Assembly: GCA_030141605.1 (NCBI GenBank)
Contig: JAQGDQ010000451.1
Coordinates: 1 to 64,000, forward strand
Source of the DNA: Tubiluchus corallicola
Taxonomy: Eukaryota; Priapulida; Priapulimorpha; Priapulimorphida; Tubiluchidae
Reading direction: 5' to 3'
Length of the DNA: 64,000 bases
Each line of letters begins with the position of its first letter. The stretch's first letter is position 1. The translations under genes were made by a program, and so were the position numbers. Positions 516 through 61,372 of this stretch are shown piece by piece. The notes beneath the pieces are model-generated. The model had not been told where the DNA came from. It did not search any database and saw only the letters and a program-made list of their open reading frames with translations.

Positions 516-665
516 CTGTGAGTAATCAACTCCAGAAAATTCTTAGATTTCAGTTCAACAAATGCATTGTCTATGTGTTCCACTCTAGACAAGATCACCT
601 CTAAGCAAAGCTGACGAAACACAGCATGAAGACCTGGCAGCATGAATAGCATCTTATTCATAAAC
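516..665 (-). CDS. PRKDC: PRKDC exon (most downstream in window)
   Basis: 150 bp, phase 2 to 2. It encodes LPGLHAVFRQLCLEVILSRV and VELKSKNFLELITH, matching human [20 protein letters not shown] and FQLKSKDFVQVMRH. The acceptor is ttgtag and the donor gtacta. The gene continues beyond position 1. Confidence 0.96.
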
Positions 666-1018
666 CTACAAAAAAGAGCATTTAAAACTTACTTGAGAGA
701 TCACTTTATAAAAACATTAAACATAATTTCAAAGTTTAAACTGAAATTTTGCAACACTGATGCAAAATGGCTGCTAGCTCTAAAAACAGACAACGTATAA
801 AGTATGCCAAATTTACACTGATAATACTATCTCTATGGCGCATCAAAGATGTCAGCGCACCCAAACAGAATAATTGTAAACTTTAAAGAAATATGCTGAA
901 ATCATATTGAGATACTATGGTACCTGAGGTTATAAACAGAATTGTGGTCTTTATGACAGTGAAACTTAAACTTGCTGCAAAACAAGTGAGGGAAAAACAA
1001 AAAAGTCTAAGAACTTAC

Positions 1019-1930
1019 GTGTCCGCAAAGTGCTGATAATGAAAAGTAGTCTAAGAACTTACCTGTCTGCAAAGCGCTGATAATGAAAAGTAGTCTAAGA
1101 ACTTACCTGTCTGCAAAGCGCGGATAATGAAAAATAGTCTAAGAACTTACCTGTCTGCAAAGCGCTGATAATGAACAGTAGTCTAAGAACTTACCTGTCT
1201 GCAAAGCACTGATAATGAACAGTAATCTAAGAACTTACCTGTCTGCAAAGCGCTGATAATGAACAGTAATCTAAGAACTTACCTGTCTGCAAAGTGCGGA
1301 TAATGAACAGTAATCTACTTACCTGTCTGCAAAGCGCTGATAATGAACAGTAGTCTAAGAACTTACCTGTCTGCAAAGCGCTGATAATGAACAGTAGTCT
1401 AAGAACTTACGTGTCTGCAAAGCGCTGATAATGAACAGTAATCTAAGAACTTACCTGTCCGCAAAGCGCTGATAATGAACAGTAGTCTAAGAACTTACGT
1501 GTCTTCAAAGCACTGATAATGAACAGTAATCTACTTACCTGTCTGCAAAGCACTGATAATGAACAGTAGTCTAAGAACTTACCTGTCCGCAAAGCACTGA
1601 TAATGAACAGTAGTCTAAGAACTTACGTGTCTTCAAAGCGCTGATAATGAACAGTAATCTACTTACCTGTCCGCAAAGCGCTGATAATGAACAGTAGTCT
1701 AAGAACTTACCTGTCCGCAAAGCACTGATAATGAACAGTAGTCTAAGAACTTACCTGTCCGCAAAGCGCTGATAATGAACAGTAGTCTAAGAACTTACCT
1801 GTCTGCAAAGCGCTGATAATGAACAGTAGTCTGAGAACTTACCTGTCTGCAAAGCACTGATAATGAACAGTAGTCTAAGAACTTACCTGTCCGCAAAGCG
1901 CGGATAATGAATAGTAGTCTAAGAACTTAC
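1019..1930 (-). repeat. Minisatellite of 21 units (44 bp, some 40 bp) built from a PRKDC exon end plus its splice donor
   Basis: Unit starts are at 1019, 1063, 1107, 1151, 1195, 1239, 1283, 1323, 1367, 1411, 1455, 1499, 1539, 1583, 1627, 1667, 1711, 1755, 1799, 1843 and 1887, adjoining the genuine exon end at 1931. On the minus strand each unit reads as 32 bp of exon tail ending TTTGCAGACAG, followed by gtaagttcttag. Every unit therefore carries an almost consensus donor (CAG/gtaagt); a few units have gtaagt after CAC. Forty-bp units lack part of the intron stub. Confidence 0.95.
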
Positions 1931-2061
1931 CTGTCTGCAAAGCGCGGATAATGAACAGTTATCTTCTGCAGGCTGATAATAAACGCTCCCTTATCCGTTA
2001 CCTGCATCACTGATAGTTGATCCGTTACAGCATCATGGAAAGCTCCTTTCGTTACCTTTTC
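1931..2061 (-). CDS. PRKDC: PRKDC exon whose 3' end seeds a minisatellite
   Basis: 131 bp, phase 0 to 2. It encodes FHDAVTDQL, DKGAFIISLQKITV and YPRFADR, matching human LCELVAKQL, DKFIVCLNKVTK and FPPLADR, with the same residue spacing from the neighbouring exons. The last 32 bp and the adjoining gtaagttcttag are repeated about 21 times downstream (see 1019-1930). Confidence 0.93.
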
Positions 2062-2919: not shown

Positions 2920-3157
2920 CTTTTCAGCAAGATAATTCAGCACCATTCCGATCACCTCAGCTGCAGGTGCATACACGCCCTTATACTTCACTACAAGATT
3001 CTTTACAATGGCTTGAAGAAAACGCGTTCTGTCTATCCCCGGAGTGTAGCTGTACGGAGGCAGACGATTTGCCATGACGATCCCGAGCAGCTGAACGCCC
3101 ACGCCATGGTTATCCTTTGCACGTGAGGCGTCCTCTATCAGATGATTATAAATTATA
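2920..3157 (-). CDS. PRKDC: PRKDC exon
   Basis: 238 bp, phase 2 to 0. It encodes DNHGVGVQLLGIVMANRLPP and YKGVYAPAAEVIGMVLNYL, matching human DNSVGIQLLGIVMANDLPP and YKEVYAAAAEVLGLILRYV. The donor gttcgt is non-ideal but gives the right residue spacing to the next exon. Confidence 0.97.
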
Positions 3158-19020: not shown

Positions 19021-19815
19021 TGAGCATTTGCACCTGAAAGATCATTTTCAGCAAGCTATGCTTCTCAGATAGTAAACCAAGGACCACAGTGTGGAGCATT
19101 TGCACCTGAAAGATCATTTTCAGCAAGCTATGCTTCTCAGATAGTAAACTGAGGACCACTGTGTCGAGCATTTGCATCTGAAAGATCATTTTCAGCAAGC
19201 TATGCTTCTCAGATAGTAAACCGAGGACCACCGTGTCGAGCATTTGCACCTGAAAGTTCATTTTCAGCAAGCTATGCTTCTCAGATAGTAAACCGAGGAC
19301 CACCGTGTCGAGCATTTGCACCTGAAAGTTCATTTTCAGCAAGCTATGCTTCTCAGATAGTAAACCGAGGACCACCGTGTCGAGCATTTGCACCTGAAAG
19401 ATCATTTTCAGCAAGCTAGGCTTCTCAGATAGTAAACCAAGGACCAATGTGTTGAGCATTTGCACCTGAAAGATCATTTTCAGCAAGCTATGCTTCTCAA
19501 ATAGTAAACCAAGGACCACCGTGTCGAGCATTTGCACCTGAAAAATCATTTTCAGCAAGCTATGCTTCTCAGATAGTAAACCGAGGACCACCGTGTCGAG
19601 CATTTGCACCTGAAAGATCATTTTCAGCAAGCTATGCTTCTCAGATAGTAAACCAAGGACCACCGTGTCAAGCATTTGCACCTGAAAGATCATTTTCAGC
19701 AAGCTATGCTTCTCAGATAGTAAACCGAGGACCACCGTGTCAAGCATTTGCACCTGAAAGATCATTTTCAGCAAGCTATGCTTCTCACATAGTAAACCGA
19801 GGACCACTGTGTCAG
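19021..19815 (-). repeat. 72-bp minisatellite, 11 copies, open in one minus-strand frame
   Basis: The unit is 72 bp (24 codons). The minus strand therefore stays open for 275 codons, repeating SEKHSLLKMIFQVQMLDTVV. It lies in the intron before the PRKDC exon at 18541. I judge it non-coding because no donor/acceptor pair integrates it and vertebrate DNA-PKcs has no such insert. Confidence 0.9.
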
Positions 19816-34365: not shown

Positions 34366-34952
34366 CACAATTATTATAATTATTAAAAATCTTTATTGAA
34401 AATTATACAAGAAGCCCTCTATTTGCAGGGTACAAAAGTACAAAAATTTTAAATAAGTCTTTACACTACGTACATTAAATGAATTACTTACTAAACAAGC
34501 TGACAATTTTGCATTACGATTTACTTGCTCTAAATATATATCCAATATTTATAATCAATGTATAATCAATTTACTATAAGATCATTTTGGGTTAGTTCTT
34601 TCACAATATCTATATACATTTTAATTACATTAGTGTCTCTCTTTCTGTAAATGTTTCGAATGTCATTATTTTCTAAGCCGCGCTCGATATTCACTCTTAT
34701 ATCTTGTCTAACAAATGGTAACGGACAATGAAAAATTAAATGTTCTGGGGTTTGACTGCCCAAACCGCAAACACACAGATCTGAATCAGTTATACCTATC
34801 CTGTATTTAAATGATTTGCAACCTCTTCCAAGTAGAAGAGCTAACGCACTTCTTTCTATAAATCTGTCACATTTACTGACTGGTATATCTAATGGTGTTG
34901 TAAATATAGGAATTAACTCTATAATATTGGTGGCACAATATTTAAAATGCAC
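34366..34952 (-). mobile_element. LINE 3' fragment: ORF2 C-terminus plus 3' tail
   Basis: A minus-strand open frame of about 128 residues ends at 34566. It carries DLCVCGLGSQTPEHLIFHCP, the Cys/His motif (CxC..H...C) found after the reverse transcriptase in jockey/CR1-type non-LTR elements. A 3' tail containing CAAATAGAGGGC and AATAAAG then ends in ATT-rich repeats. It is truncated at its 5' end. Confidence 0.8.
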
Positions 34953-35783
34953 TGAAAAAAAAACTTCTCATACTGAAAATTGGGAGTAAAATTCTAACCG
35001 ACGAGCTAAAAAACTTAAGCTTAGATATATACTTAAACAATGCACTCCGTAAGAAATTCTATCACGCAAAAACTACTAAAAGAATCACGTAATTAAAAAA
35101 ATGAAAGGCACCTTTTTTTCTTTTTAATAAAAATTTTATTAAATCTGCTCCCCTAGTCTGTAATAATCTGTCAAGAATAGCAGAAAGTAATGTTGTTATA
35201 AACTGTGCCTGATCTTGCATATTAGATTTATATACATGTTAATTAAAGCATTAATAATAATATATTTTTTTTAGTTTTGGGATTATCAGTGTTTGGTTAT
35301 TATTAATAACAATGAAGTAAACCTTCAATTATTAATTTGGAAATGTTTAATTTAAAAAATAGACAATTATGAGTTATTGCACTGTATCAATGTGTTATTC
35401 TTCATATTACAACTGATTAAAAACTATGGTAATTATTATAAATGGCTTGTGTTTGTTTTATTGTGCAGTATTTTTATATTCATTTTTCAAATTTTAACAA
35501 AATTTTAGGACAGTTATATGAAAGAACAGTTCATCTGCTTATAACTTTCTAGTTAGCTATTTCATTAACAACATAAAAGTTTTATCCTAATACTTTTTAC
35601 CGTTGAAAAAATGGGATTATAAAGAGAAACATTTTGTCATCTCACTAACTGATTATTAAAAACAATAATATTATTGATTATTATTACAATAATACTGATA
35701 TTCTGATATTCAAGGCTCTTTTCTACACTGAATAGATTTGCTTTGGTCGATCATAAGTGAAATCAATTAAATTTTGCACTTAC

Positions 35784-37006: not shown

Positions 37007-37527
37007 CAGGGATGAGAATGACAAATTGCAAAACACTCTGAAACAGGTCGAGGGGTTGGGGGCAACGTAGGCCCACATGGGGGTTCAAGGGGGCGAAGCC
37101 CCTTGGAGCCAGCAACAAGTTGCAATTTTGTGACCATAGAGAGCCCCTAAGTGGACTTAAAATATCAATTACCTTGTTTCATGCATAATTTAAAATACCC
37201 AACTCAAGGGCACATGATACCTAATTGTCTCAAAAATGCCTAAGTACTGGCCGCTCCTATGCAAAAGTATATAAAAACTGTCTGCAATTGACTCAAACAA
37301 CTCCACACAATTGATTCTATATTTTTATACATAGAGATATACACGTGGTTACACTGATGTACCTGATGTAAGCAAAGAGACGGTCTGCCAACTAGCGGTC
37401 AGCTTGTGAAATGATGTACTGGGTCCGTAAAAATTTTCTCAACAAATTTATGCGATTTACAAAAATGGCACTACTGGTCTTCCAAAAACTCGGAATTACG
37501 CGTATCCGCGGAAAATTCTCATCCCTG
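37007..37527 (+). mobile_element. hAT-type MITE with perfect 8-bp target duplication
   Basis: 521 bp with terminal inverted repeats CAGGGATGAGAAT / ATTCTCATCCCTG, flanked on both sides by TTATAAAC (36999-37006 and 37528-37535). The 8-bp duplication and CAGGG start are typical of hAT. It contains no transposase frame. It sits directly downstream of a PRKDC splice donor. Confidence 0.92.
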
Positions 37528-43194: not shown

Positions 43195-43700
43195 TACTGT
43201 AATTTTTTCTGCACTGCACAAGTTATATTGTTTTTACTTAATGCTTACCATATTGTTGTTGCAGTGTTCAAGTTGCATTGCCCTTACTTAATGTTTACCA
43301 TATTGTTGTAGCAGTGTTCAAATTATATTGTCCTTACTTAACGCTAACCATATTGTTGCTGCAGTGTTCAAGTTATATTGTCCTTACGTAACGCTTACCA
43401 TATTGTTGTTGCAGTGTTCAAGTTATATTGTCCTTACTTAATGCTTACCATATTGTGGTTGTAGTGTTCAAGTTATATTGTCCTTACTTAAGACTTACCA
43501 TATTGTTGTTGCAGAGTTCAAGTTATGTTGTCCTTACTTAAGACTTACCATAGTGTTGCTGCAGTGTTCAAGTTATATTGTTCTTACTTAACGCTTATCA
43601 TATTGTTGTTACAGTGTTCAAGTTATGTTGTCCTTACTTAATGCTGACCAAATTGTTGCTGCACTGTACAAGTTACATTGTTATTACTTAAAGCTTGCCA
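43195..43700. repeat. 50-bp minisatellite, about 10 copies
   Basis: The unit reads CATATTGTTGTTGCAGTGTT then CAAGTTATATTGTCCTTACT then TAATGCTTAC. The plus strand has an acceptor-like TTGTTGCAG in each unit and the minus strand an ATG/gtaag donor-like string. Intronic. Confidence 0.92.
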
Positions 43701-44949
43701 GGTTGTTGTAAAAATGTTTTGCATACATTTGTTGTAATGTCTCCGCCCAAAAGGGTAATAGAGATTTGAAATAAATTTGAATTTTGAAAATTTGTGTCGC
43801 ACTTACAAATGAAACAATGAGTTTACCAGAGGATAATGATTCGAGTCATTAACTCAAATTCGAGTGCATTAAAGCAGGTCTTTCTTAGCAGGAACTCGGA
43901 ATCGAGAAACGTGCCTCTTACTAAAAAGCCAAGACTTACTAAGTCTCTTACTAGAACAACCCTCTCATCAGAAATTGCTGAACATGTCTTGTGTATAAAA
44001 TCGAACAATAGTTTGCAGTGCAGGACGTAAATTTAGTGTAAAATTTTGATAGAATAAATGTTCTGAAGTAATATGCCTCTGTACGTTACGGCAATTAATT
44101 AATTAACTACCTAGTGTGTTATAATAGACTGCATTGTGCATAATAATAATGATATTTGCTATGTACATCTTCCTGTATTAGCCCTACAGACTTGGACATG
44201 GACTCATTAGTAAAACATTTGGAGTAAAAATAATTTTTTTTCCTCTGGTGTCTGCACCCTATCACCTGTAGTCTTAATTATCTCCACATTAACTTTCCCT
44301 ATTGTACATAATACGGGAAATTAGAGAATTGTATGATATTTTGCTAGTTTCATGATGACATGAAATTCCATGATGACAAACACATGATATACCATCAGTT
44401 TGTGTTAAGAGACTGAACAGTGTATGACAGCTGTCAAAGACGGGCGATATTTCACGCATAAGACCCGACTACGTGAAGCAAAATAACATAGCGACATCTC
44501 GTCATTGGCTTCTTCTAATAATTTTCCCTTGTGCGTAAAGTGGCAAACAGGTAAAAGTTTCATGACACAGTTACACCTGCAAAGACTGATTCTTCAAGAA
44601 TTATATCTGTAACGCAAGAGTTAACTTTGTACAAAACACTTCAATTATCATGCTTTTTTGTGCCTTAGAGCCTCTATACACTGTCAGGAAGAAGAATAGC
44701 TGAATGGATGCAGTACATATTTGGGTATGAAAGTTAAACAATGTTAAAGTTGACTAACAAATGGGTGAAGAACCACCAGAAAAATGTTGAGAGAGGCGTC
44801 TGAGACAATCTTGTTTTAGAAGACTAACCTAGATTTGGAGCTAGGAGCTGGTCCTGCCACAACAGCAGTAGGCTCTGAGATTAAATGCTCAATTCTGGAG
44901 CGCAGTGTTGAAAACTATACAAAAATAGCCTTGACGCCGTATAACCTAC

Positions 44950-49211: not shown

Positions 49212-49671
49212 GACTTATAACACTATGTGGAATATGTGTGTATTATTGACTACTGGTGTACGGGTAGCGTTAATACAAAGTGGCCATGTGGAAGCTGTTA
49301 GGAAATACAAAGTAGACTACATTAGTAATCCCGAACTGCACGTTTAGAACATTTTCTCTGTACAGACTTAAAACACTATGTGGAAAATGTGTGTATTATT
49401 GACTACTGGTGTACGGGTAGCGTTAATACAAAGTGGCCATGTGGAAGCTGTTAGGAAATACAAAGTAGACTACATTAGTAATCCCGAACTGCACGTTTAG
49501 AACATTTTCTCTGTACAGACTTAACACACTATGTGGAATATGTGTGTATTATTGACTACTGGTGTACGGGTAGCATTAATACAAAGGGGCCATGTGGAAG
49601 CTGTTAGGAAATACATAGTAGACTACACTAGTAATCCCGAACTGCACGTTTAGAACGTTTTCTCTGTACAG
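49212..49671. repeat. 153-bp tandem triplication
   Basis: Three near-identical units begin at 49212, 49365 and 49518, each containing ACTATGTGGAATATGTGTGT and ending CATTTTCTCTGTACAGA-like. It begins about 66 bp downstream of the donor of the exon at 49738. Confidence 0.95.
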
Positions 49672-49737
49672 ATATAACTATTTGCATGAAAAAACAATGT
49701 TTAAAACAACAACGAAAAACGTGCAAAGGATACAAAC

Positions 49738-58789: not shown

Positions 58790-58865
58790 CTCCAGAGCCA
58801 TGAACACATGCATTTTTATTAGTGTTTTTAGCAAGGAATAGCTTAAACTGCCACAAAACAAAGTT
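58790..58865 (+). promoter_or_regulatory. 5' flank shared by the two tetraspanin copies (with 60455-60529)
   Basis: Both ATGs are preceded by related sequence. Blocks of the form AAACTCCAGAG, an ACATTTTTA-like block, AATAG(T/C)TTAAA and CACAAA lie at matching distances. The duplication therefore included the 5' leader and perhaps the core promoter. No TATA box position can be assigned. Confidence 0.5.
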
Positions 58866-59705
58866 ATGGGCATAACTATTAGTGAAAATGGAAGACAAGC
58901 ACTCTTGCTGGTTGCAGCGTTTCAATGTACAGCAGGAGTTGTTGGTGGTTTACTCTTAATTATAGCAGGTGATTTTTTGCAACACAAACTGGAAAAATAC
59001 CATAATATTATTGGTTCGCATCTGCACAATGCCGAATGGCATTTTGTCTGCTTTGCCGTTACCGGCGTCGCTTTCATGGTCAACTGTATCAACGGCTTCT
59101 CCATTGTAACGCATTTAATGGTACCCGAACAGAGACATCACCGAATATTTGTTTTCAATTTGTATTTGTCTTTTGATATGATCATTTGTTGCATGCCCGG
59201 AATCGTGAGTTTGTCATGCTTTGTTGATATACACTACTTTAGTGTGGCATTCGAAGAAGGAATTTTAGAGTCGATGAAGCTGTACTCAACAAACGACACA
59301 ATTAAGCAAGTGCTGGACGAAATGCAGGTTACTTACAAATGCTGCGGCAGTCACAGCTACCAAGATTGGATGAACTTAACGTCTTACTCAAATTACAATG
59401 ACGACAACGTGTCAGACTTTGCGCAGACTTTCCAACAGGTGCTGCCCTCGAGCTGCTGTGACGAGGAACTCGATTGGGAATGCATGTACGATAATGAAAC
59501 CATGGCAACGATGGGATGTAAGGAGGCTCTCATGGGGTACTTTGGTGACTATCTATTAAAAAGGATAGGTATGCTTGCATTAGCCGTCGCTGTGTTCCGC
59601 GTCTTATCTCTGTGCTGTTTGCGCTTAATTCAGACCTCCATCGTCGAGGCTCTTCTAATAGGAAACCCAACCGCACCAGCAGCCGGATACTTATTCAGAC
59701 TGTAA
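58866..59705 (+). CDS. Peripherin/ROM1-like tetraspanin, intronless copy 1
   Basis: A 279-aa four-pass membrane protein in one uninterrupted frame from ATG to TAA. Hydrophobic segments are at about 12-35, 58-81, 94-120 and 233-256. The large extracellular loop has the tetraspanin CCG at 159-161, DW at 167-168, SSCC at 195-198, Cys206 and GC at 217-218, giving six loop cysteines. N-glycosylation sequons lie at 143, 170, 181 and 210. The post-loop block GCKEALMGYF and the C-terminal LRLIQTSI resemble the peripherin-2/ROM1 branch (GCRAALLSYY, LRYLQTSL). Tetraspanins organise membrane microdomains; the ligand here is unknown. Family members normally have introns, so the intronless form suggests a retrocopy. 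It lies antisense to PRKDC and probably inside one of its introns. Confidence 0.93.
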   Translation: MGITISENGRQALLLVAAFQCTAGVVGGLLLIIAGDFLQHKLEKYHNIIGSHLHNAEWHFVCFAVTGVAFMVNCINGFSIVTHLMVPEQRHHRIFVFNLYLSFDMIICCMPGIVSLSCFVDIHYFSVAFEEGILESMKLYSTNDTIKQVLDEMQVTYKCCGSHSYQDWMNLTSYSNYNDDNVSDFAQTFQQVLPSSCCDEELDWECMYDNETMATMGCKEALMGYFGDYLLKRIGMLALAVAVFRVLSLCCLRLIQTSIVEALLIGNPTAPAAGYLFRL

Positions 59706-60320: not shown

Positions 60321-60529
60321 CTAAACAAAAGTTAGCAAACTAACAGTTAGAAGGCAAGTTGAGTTTAAACTCAATTTCATGACATCATTGTGAGTTTGAA
60401 AAGAACAAATACCATTGTCCTAAAAAGAATGATTTCGTTTCATTTATAAACTAACAAAACTCCAGAGATAAGATACATTTTTATAAGTATTATAATAAAA
60501 AATAGTTTAAAATATCACAAAGTAGAGTT

Positions 60530-61372
60530 ATGGGTATAACAATCAGTGAGAATGGAAGACAAGTACTCTTAATGGTTGCAGCATTTCAGTGTGCAATGGG
60601 AACTGTAGGTGGCTTGTTCCTAATTCTTGCAGGTGACTACATGCAGCGTGAATTAAAAATATACGAAAATGTTCTTGCCTCGCGATTCCATAATGGCGAA
60701 TTCTGGTTCATTTGCTTTTCAGTCACTGGCATCGCTTTCGTTGTCAACTGTCTCCATGGCTTCATCGTCGTAACGGATTCGATGATGCCCGAACTGCGGC
60801 GCGAACGAATGTTTATTTTCAGCTTATACATGTCTATCAGCACGACAATTTGCTTTATGCCCGGTCTCGTGGGCTACTTGTGTTTCATGGATATCGGGTA
60901 TCTTGGCAAAGCACTCGAACAAGGGATTTTCGAATCGATGGAAATGTATCACAAAAACGACACAATCAAACAAGAAATCGACGAACTACAGATGACCTAT
61001 CAGTGCTGTGGTAGCCGAGACCATCAAGACTGGTTTAACATTTCCTCTCACCTAAATCACGACAATTACAACGAATCGAAATCAGCAGGAACTGCTGAAC
61101 ACGTGCTGCCCTCAAGTTGCTGCGGTGAAGAATTTGACGATGAATGCGTGTACGACAACGAGACTGTTAATACACGAGGGTGTAAAGAAGCTCTCATGCA
61201 TTACTTTGGCAATGTTCTGTTAAGAAGCGTAGGCACCATTGCACTAGCAATACTCGTGCTCCATATTTTATCACTCGGCTGTTTCCGATTGATCCAAACT
61301 TCGATAGCGGAAGCACTTTCGACGGGAATTCCAACTACTCCAGCAGTCGGCTACTTATTCAGAGTCGGCTGA
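60530..61372 (+). CDS. Peripherin/ROM1-like tetraspanin, intronless copy 2
   Basis: 280 aa, a tandem paralogue of the gene 0.8 kb upstream. It has the same length, the same start MGITISENGRQ, the same end GYLFR, and the same CCG (159-161), DW, SSCC and GC cysteine framework. Four sequons sit at the same positions. Divergence lies mainly in the extracellular loop (residues 170-195) and the first loop, as expected of selected paralogues. Both frames are intact, so both copies look functional. An AATAAA at 61394-61399, 22 bp after the stop, could be the polyadenylation signal. Upstream is a CT microsatellite, then about 75 bp resembling the 5' flank of copy 1. Confidence 0.93.
   Translation: MGITISENGRQVLLMVAAFQCAMGTVGGLFLILAGDYMQRELKIYENVLASRFHNGEFWFICFSVTGIAFVVNCLHGFIVVTDSMMPELRRERMFIFSLYMSISTTICFMPGLVGYLCFMDIGYLGKALEQGIFESMEMYHKNDTIKQEIDELQMTYQCCGSRDHQDWFNISSHLNHDNYNESKSAGTAEHVLPSSCCGEEFDDECVYDNETVNTRGCKEALMHYFGNVLLRSVGTIALAILVLHILSLGCFRLIQTSIAEALSTGIPTTPAVGYLFRVG

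Follow-up and report, generated by a model that had tools for sequence, protein, structure and literature searches.

A 22-unit minisatellite across a PRKDC splice donor in the priapulid Tubiluchus corallicola

Introduction

The length of a minisatellite array usually varies between individuals, and in arrays of the type known from human 6-16/IFI6 the repeated region reportedly includes the end of an exon together with its donor site. Minisatellites are defined in one account as tandem units of 15-100 bp (PMC3618361) and, going by the title of the 1995 report by Turri, Cuin and Porter (PMC306954), multiple splice donors are supplied by a minisatellite in the human interferon-induced gene 6-16/IFI6 (G1P3); a further account has two downstream repeat units of IFI6 acting as donors, giving three mRNA species that encode isoforms (PMC4526556). 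A second related system is intron gain by AGGT tandem duplication (the Rogers model), for which cases from potato RdRp, fission yeast and ATP2A1 are put forward in one paper (PMC4974935).

The array described here, located in the PRKDC gene of Tubiluchus corallicola, is like IFI6, as far as the title of the 1995 report describes it, in being a minisatellite with multiple splice donors, the additional donors (hereafter decoys) being predicted in PRKDC from the sequence. The kind of arrangement is thus not new, given this precedent as so described; the PRKDC case differs from it, and from the three isoform mRNAs attributed to IFI6, in belonging to an unrelated gene and in that each decoy adds an immediate stop. 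It is also like AGGT intron gain, as outlined in the paper cited, in that a tandem duplication multiplies AG/GT within a gene (here and below the slash marks the splice border). The model proposes an exonic segment carrying AGGT; PRKDC likewise has AGGT, but its duplicated piece extends across an exon-intron border that was there beforehand. In a limited literature search for tandem repeats of PRKDC in invertebrate introns, judged by its listing, nothing on such an array was found.

Results

The locus and its gene

The window, meaning the whole stretch of DNA that was analysed, is taken from a 190-kb contig, of which it forms the initial 64 kb, window base 1 being contig base 1, and belongs to an assembly of 343.5 Mb in 2344 contigs. 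The minus strand of the window carries PRKDC, and the three exons that surround the array, all identified by alignment to human DNA-PKcs, are as follows:

2920..3157, minus strand: PRKDC exon A, the upstream exon, encoding IIYNHLIED...LAEK, with edges set by eye
1931..2061, minus strand: PRKDC exon B, 131 bp, encoding EKVTKG...HYPRFAD plus 2 nt, the source of the repeat as judged from its sequence
516..665, minus strand: PRKDC exon C, 150 bp, encoding FMNKMLFMLPGLH...ITHR, with acceptor TTTTTTGTAG/GTTTATG

When joined, exons A, B and C match residues 2266-2427 of human DNA-PKcs in a translated alignment (best E 8.8e-41), which is gap-free in the ADRFMN region from the exon B side through, and this alignment bears out both the PRKDC identity and the ADR/FMN junction that a first-pass annotation of the DNA had proposed. 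Further PRKDC-like pieces were chosen by eye from open reading frames, so that their openness holds by construction. Some of them failed to align; others match the human protein in four stretches within residues 499-1126, three of which pass the threshold alone, and in three stretches between residues 1446 and 2254, giving a partial gene model. The exon B alignment and the matches scattered over residues 499-2254 suggest, without proving it, that the array is carried by a working PRKDC gene. Just 515 bases of the contig remain past exon C, so that the 3' half of PRKDC is presumably on another contig.

In the 343.5-Mb assembly, with scoring confined to the best candidates, the array gave a match at a single locus (1 candidate), and exons B and C (3 candidates) were matched nowhere but at that locus; a second allele or paralogue, which was considered as a candidate, is rejected on these grounds.

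Several other features of the window were observed. Its first 424 bases, at the contig end, consist of a high-copy interspersed repeat of approximately 420 bp, for which scoring the best 40 of 2244 candidates gave at least 39 further strong matches, 92-95% identical. On the plus strand, 58842-59705 and 60506-61372 contain two similar long open reading frames of 287 and 288 aa from stop to stop, which by eye we take to be tetraspanin-like and to be tandem paralogues lying past the 5' part of PRKDC, and a minus-strand open reading frame at 34566-34967 resembles, by eye, the terminal part of a reverse transcriptase from a non-LTR retrotransposon.

Structure of the array

1004..1959, minus strand: minisatellite with a 44-bp period and 22 units (Tandem Repeats Finder, 91% matches; unit table; single match in the genome assembly)
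1925..1933, minus strand: donor 1, CAG/GTAAGT, with G+1 at 1930, U1 duplex of -12.1 kcal/mol and support from the junction alignment
1004..1915, minus strand: 21 decoy units, with donors whose G+1 runs from 1886 down to 1018, 17 reading CAG/GTAAGT and 4 CAC/GTAAGT

With its 22 units of 44 bp and 91% matches the array falls within the definition of a minisatellite. Unit 1 is made up of the conserved end of exon B and donor 1, as expected of an array of the IFI6 type and in agreement with the earlier proposal that the minisatellite was born at an exon-intron border, while units 2-22 are the decoys. Read on the minus strand, each unit comprises 29 bases of exon end followed by 15 bases of intron start. 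The annotation had described 32 exon and 12 intron bases repeated 21 times; the 21 tandem copies were indeed found, but the shared piece has to be divided as 29 + 15, since at the position of ATA in the exon the decoys have ACT or ATT.

A GTAAGT donor is present on the minus strand in all 22 units, its G+1 ranging between 1930 and 1018, and is preceded by CAG in 18 of the 22 donors and by CAC in the other 4. Consensus donors are thus kept in the later units as well (GTAAGT in 21/21, CAG/GTAAGT in 17/21), and the statement that most copies retain the complete motif was correct. The sequence CAGGTAAGT occurs 18 times on the minus strand of the window, in every case within the array, and once on the plus strand. 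Three of the 22 units (7, 10 and 15) are shortened to 40 bp by a 4-bp deletion just past the donor. The 32-nt pseudo-exon that had been ascribed to each unit, lying between cttag and gtaag, describes most of them rather than all: of the 21 unit tails lying ahead of a decoy, 17 have the opening CTTAG, three lack the motif and one reads CTCAG. At its far end the array is adjoined by a strong candidate acceptor with a long pyrimidine tract, the AG of which ends at 975.

The array lies 1 kb from the end of a contig which terminates in a high-copy repeat, and this might point to an assembly artefact or an incorrect length. Such an explanation is extremely improbable, as the units vary irregularly in substitutions and 4-bp deletions, and exon C, for which no match was found elsewhere in the assembly, lies past the array; the copy number itself may nevertheless be off, given the repeat at the nearby contig end.

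Junctions formed by the 22 donors

Joining donor 1 to exon C results in HYPRFADRFMNKMLF, which is colinear with human SFPPLADRFMNAVFF, and among the 22 donors only donor 1 gives the conserved in-frame ADR/FMN junction. All of donors 2-22 (21/21), when computationally joined to exon C, produce a stop straight after ADR, exactly as the first-pass annotation had stated for any later donor, and the length of the resulting exon ranges from 131 nt with donor 1 to 1043 nt with the last donor.

That the same stop follows from all 21 decoys is one of the points in favour of the main rival to a silent array, and the reading with consequences: decoys would be used to an appreciable extent, the stop after ADR would direct these transcripts to NMD, and the length of the array would set the amount of full-length PRKDC. 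We consider this unlikely, though deserving of more weight than any other alternative.

Donor strength and RNA folding

Predicted U1 pairing is -12.1 kcal/mol for CAG/GTAAGTTC, found in 15 of the 22 donors including donor 1, and -13.7 kcal/mol for CAG/GTAAGTAG, found in three donors, all of them decoys. In total 17 of the 21 decoys equal or exceed donor 1 in U1 pairing. This supports appreciable decoy use, as there are 21 decoys, 17 with a perfect CAG/GTAAGT and three of these at -13.7 as against -12.1 kcal/mol; on the other side, the four CAC decoys are much weaker (-5.7 kcal/mol in the three that were measured), matching PRKDC pieces flank the array on both sides, and the decoy donors carry no signal of selection in either direction (see below).

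Across the window, 20 of the 4227 minus-strand GT sites examined reach -12 kcal/mol, and since 18 of these fall within the array, most decoys cannot be considered weak sites. Among 17 further PRKDC exon ends, 16 were assigned a donor by eye, some of them uncertainly, with pairing of -3.2 to -9.5 kcal/mol; the end near 37392 allowed no such assignment. The minus-strand sites 8250 (CAG/GTGGGTAC, -12.8 kcal/mol) and 48797 (GAG/GTGAGTAG, -12.4 kcal/mol), both outside the array, are better than donor 1, and in view of the incomplete PRKDC exon map donor 1 may not be the strongest donor of the gene. Donor strength as the sole selector of the splice site was rejected, because with 17 CAG decoys of equal or better U1 energy strength alone leaves a win of donor 1 unexplained.

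Concealment of the decoys by RNA structure was also considered, and is not supported by predicted folding. According to the prediction, RNA of the array folds less well than its shuffled versions (z +3.75, with 20/20 shuffles folding at least as well), although a repeat may fold worse than its shuffles from unit composition alone, and for exon B together with the first units the predicted folding is unremarkable (z 0.25; 118/200 shuffles at least as well folded). Searches for known RNA families at gathering thresholds and for tRNAs found none.

Acceptors within and beside the array

The array contains 18 AG/GTAAGT motifs in register, which brings to mind nested or recursive splicing, whereby donor 1 would be joined to a later AG of AG/GT, the donor remade and the intron shortened stepwise with the mRNA unchanged. 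Rogers' AGGT model and fission-yeast introns across several 24-bp duplicates, as presented in the intron-gain paper (PMC4974935), lend some support to this, as does a further AG within the array, that at 1111, which equals the natural acceptor in pyrimidine fraction (0.75). The 17 decoy AG/GTAAG sites themselves are poor acceptors, their mean pyrimidine fraction in the 20 nt above the AG being 0.56 versus 0.75 for the natural one, and a step of one unit, at 44 nt, is very short. Moreover, AG/GT is part of every CAG/GT donor, so that the motif is no evidence of use, and we hold recursive splicing to be very improbable.

A different gene model may be drawn with the acceptor AG ending at 975, in which a further exon lies between B and C and the array fills an intron of its own:

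924..974, minus strand: candidate in-frame cassette exon of 51 nt, with acceptor AG ending at 975 and donor CAG/GTACCATA; prediction only

The pyrimidine fraction of this acceptor, 0.85, is the highest of the 113 AGs examined in the intron, and it is among only 8 of 3717 minus-strand AGs with a fraction of at least 0.85 and YAG; the candidate exon is open, keeps the reading frame and has a donor of -7.1 kcal/mol at 923. Human DNA-PKcs, on the other hand, has no insert at the B/C junction, and three donors at -5 kcal/mol or better lie past the acceptor, one of which gave the open in-frame exon. One success in three options could easily come about by chance, and we therefore find this gene model quite improbable.

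Origin and evolution of the array

Exon B retains a CCG codon, aligned to a Pro of human DNA-PKcs, in a position where 18 of the 21 decoys have CAG, which gives the direction of copying as from exon to array, and exon B is accordingly, as far as can be judged from these codons, the source of the repeat. Certain variants are common to non-adjacent units (the 4-bp deletion in units 7, 10 and 15, and AAGACAC in units 8 and 11) and suggest later block duplications. The gradient of similarity along the units is weak (Mantel r 0.11, with 435/5000 permutations as high), so that no clear polarity of growth emerges.

Comparison of variable columns within the units, 1/9 in the donor versus 9/32 elsewhere (Fisher 0.41), gave no indication of selection on the decoy donors, nor did the invariance of all six GTAAGT columns (P 0.10). 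There is thus no sign that selection has either preserved or destroyed them.

Other arrays and the odds of a border position

Large tandem arrays are common in the window: seven were found with a TRF score of at least 700 and a period of at least 19, covering 4804 of 64000 bases (7.5%). The six others have 3 to 49 copies and units of 19-72 bp, except for one with a unit of 153 bp, which exceeds the usual minisatellite range of 15-100 bp. They lie in the same gene as the exon B array, with similar copy numbers and mostly similar unit sizes, but their edges, with flanks read by eye, contain no exon border in any of the six, and donors at -8 kcal/mol or better occur only in the one at 43219-43709. 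Of the six, the array with the 153-bp unit comes nearest to any border found, beginning 65 nt beyond a PRKDC donor at 49737.

Three of these arrays have features of their own. The one at 43219-43709 (50 bp x 9.8) contains five moderately strong minus-strand donors of the ATG/GTAAG type, that at 49212-49672 (153 bp x 3) has three fair acceptor-like sites of identical sequence, and the array at 19022-19813 (72 bp x 11) has a period divisible by 3 and is for the most part open in both orientations (282 aa on the minus strand; 88 and 151 aa on the plus).

For six 44-bp seeds placed at random in 53 kb, the chance of at least one spanning a border was very roughly estimated at 18-30%, assuming 40-70 exon borders, this number being itself an assumption. 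The birthplace of the array, the sole one of the seven at an exon border, is therefore notable without being improbable, and in a gene so rich in arrays it is statistically unremarkable.

Discussion

The explanation that we favour, and consider probable, is that a tandem duplication across a PRKDC donor expanded to 22 units, that donor 1 is the one used, and that the array is a tolerated by-product and not an evolved device. A small tandem duplication would have happened across the exon-intron border and then grown into the minisatellite, with the original exon and donor staying intact at the upstream end of the duplication, in which case all of the extra copies become intron. Donor 1 would then be taken by the spliceosome, being 131 nt from the acceptor of its exon, a size that fits this reading better than the 1043 nt given by the last donor, favoured by exon definition and the first to be transcribed; the 21 decoys may bind U1, yet would leave with the intron. 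If the upstream donor wins in this manner, the array is silent intron. The array, its gene, the junction, the stop after every decoy and the exon-to-array copying are observed; a win of donor 1 in the cell and neutrality of the array are our inferences. In favour of this explanation are the gap-free exon B alignment, the direction of copying, the lack of any sign of selection on the decoy donors, the low predicted folding of the array RNA and the abundance of large tandem arrays in the window; the U1 pairing of the 17 CAG decoys counts against it.

What is known of competing donors does not all point in this direction. Among equally strong neighbouring donors the one nearest to the acceptor is often favoured, as in vitro examples attest, and at the present locus this would be a decoy that produces the stop; Hodson (2012) and Eperon (1993) are said to have dealt with such competition. 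In one study the presence of several U1 on alternative donors affects the choice of site, and not the efficiency of splicing unless the sites are too close (PMC5389562), which is in favour of a silent array. Against it, another paper states that with an enhancer situated between them, the intron-proximal of two donors in competition is preferred, an effect not clearly seen in its authors' own global data (PMC5585400).

The first-pass annotation had proposed that the decoys must be suppressed or variable 3' ends tolerated, and that allele length may tune PRKDC; these proposals are hypotheses. A stronger form of decoy use followed by NMD would see the array as a length-variable brake on a DNA-repair kinase, in which 21 additional donors, including 17 equal to or stronger than donor 1, divert some of the PRKDC transcripts to one truncated, NMD-bound message, and PRKDC dose differs between individuals with copy number. 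We judge this rather improbable. If true, however, it would provide an in vivo ladder for gauging the choice of the spliceosome among approximately 20 nearly equal donors 44 nt apart.

As a genomic object the array is unusual, yet with a human precedent. Work on donor competition usually deals with two or three sites at a time, and the locus offers a natural run of 22, most of them identical in their core, placed beside a single correct junction and with a clean readout, either in frame or an immediate stop. Should donor 1 nearly always win, this would speak, in vivo, for exon definition or a first-come choice rather than for nearness to the acceptor; should it not, the length of the array would act as a tunable control of dose on a repair gene.
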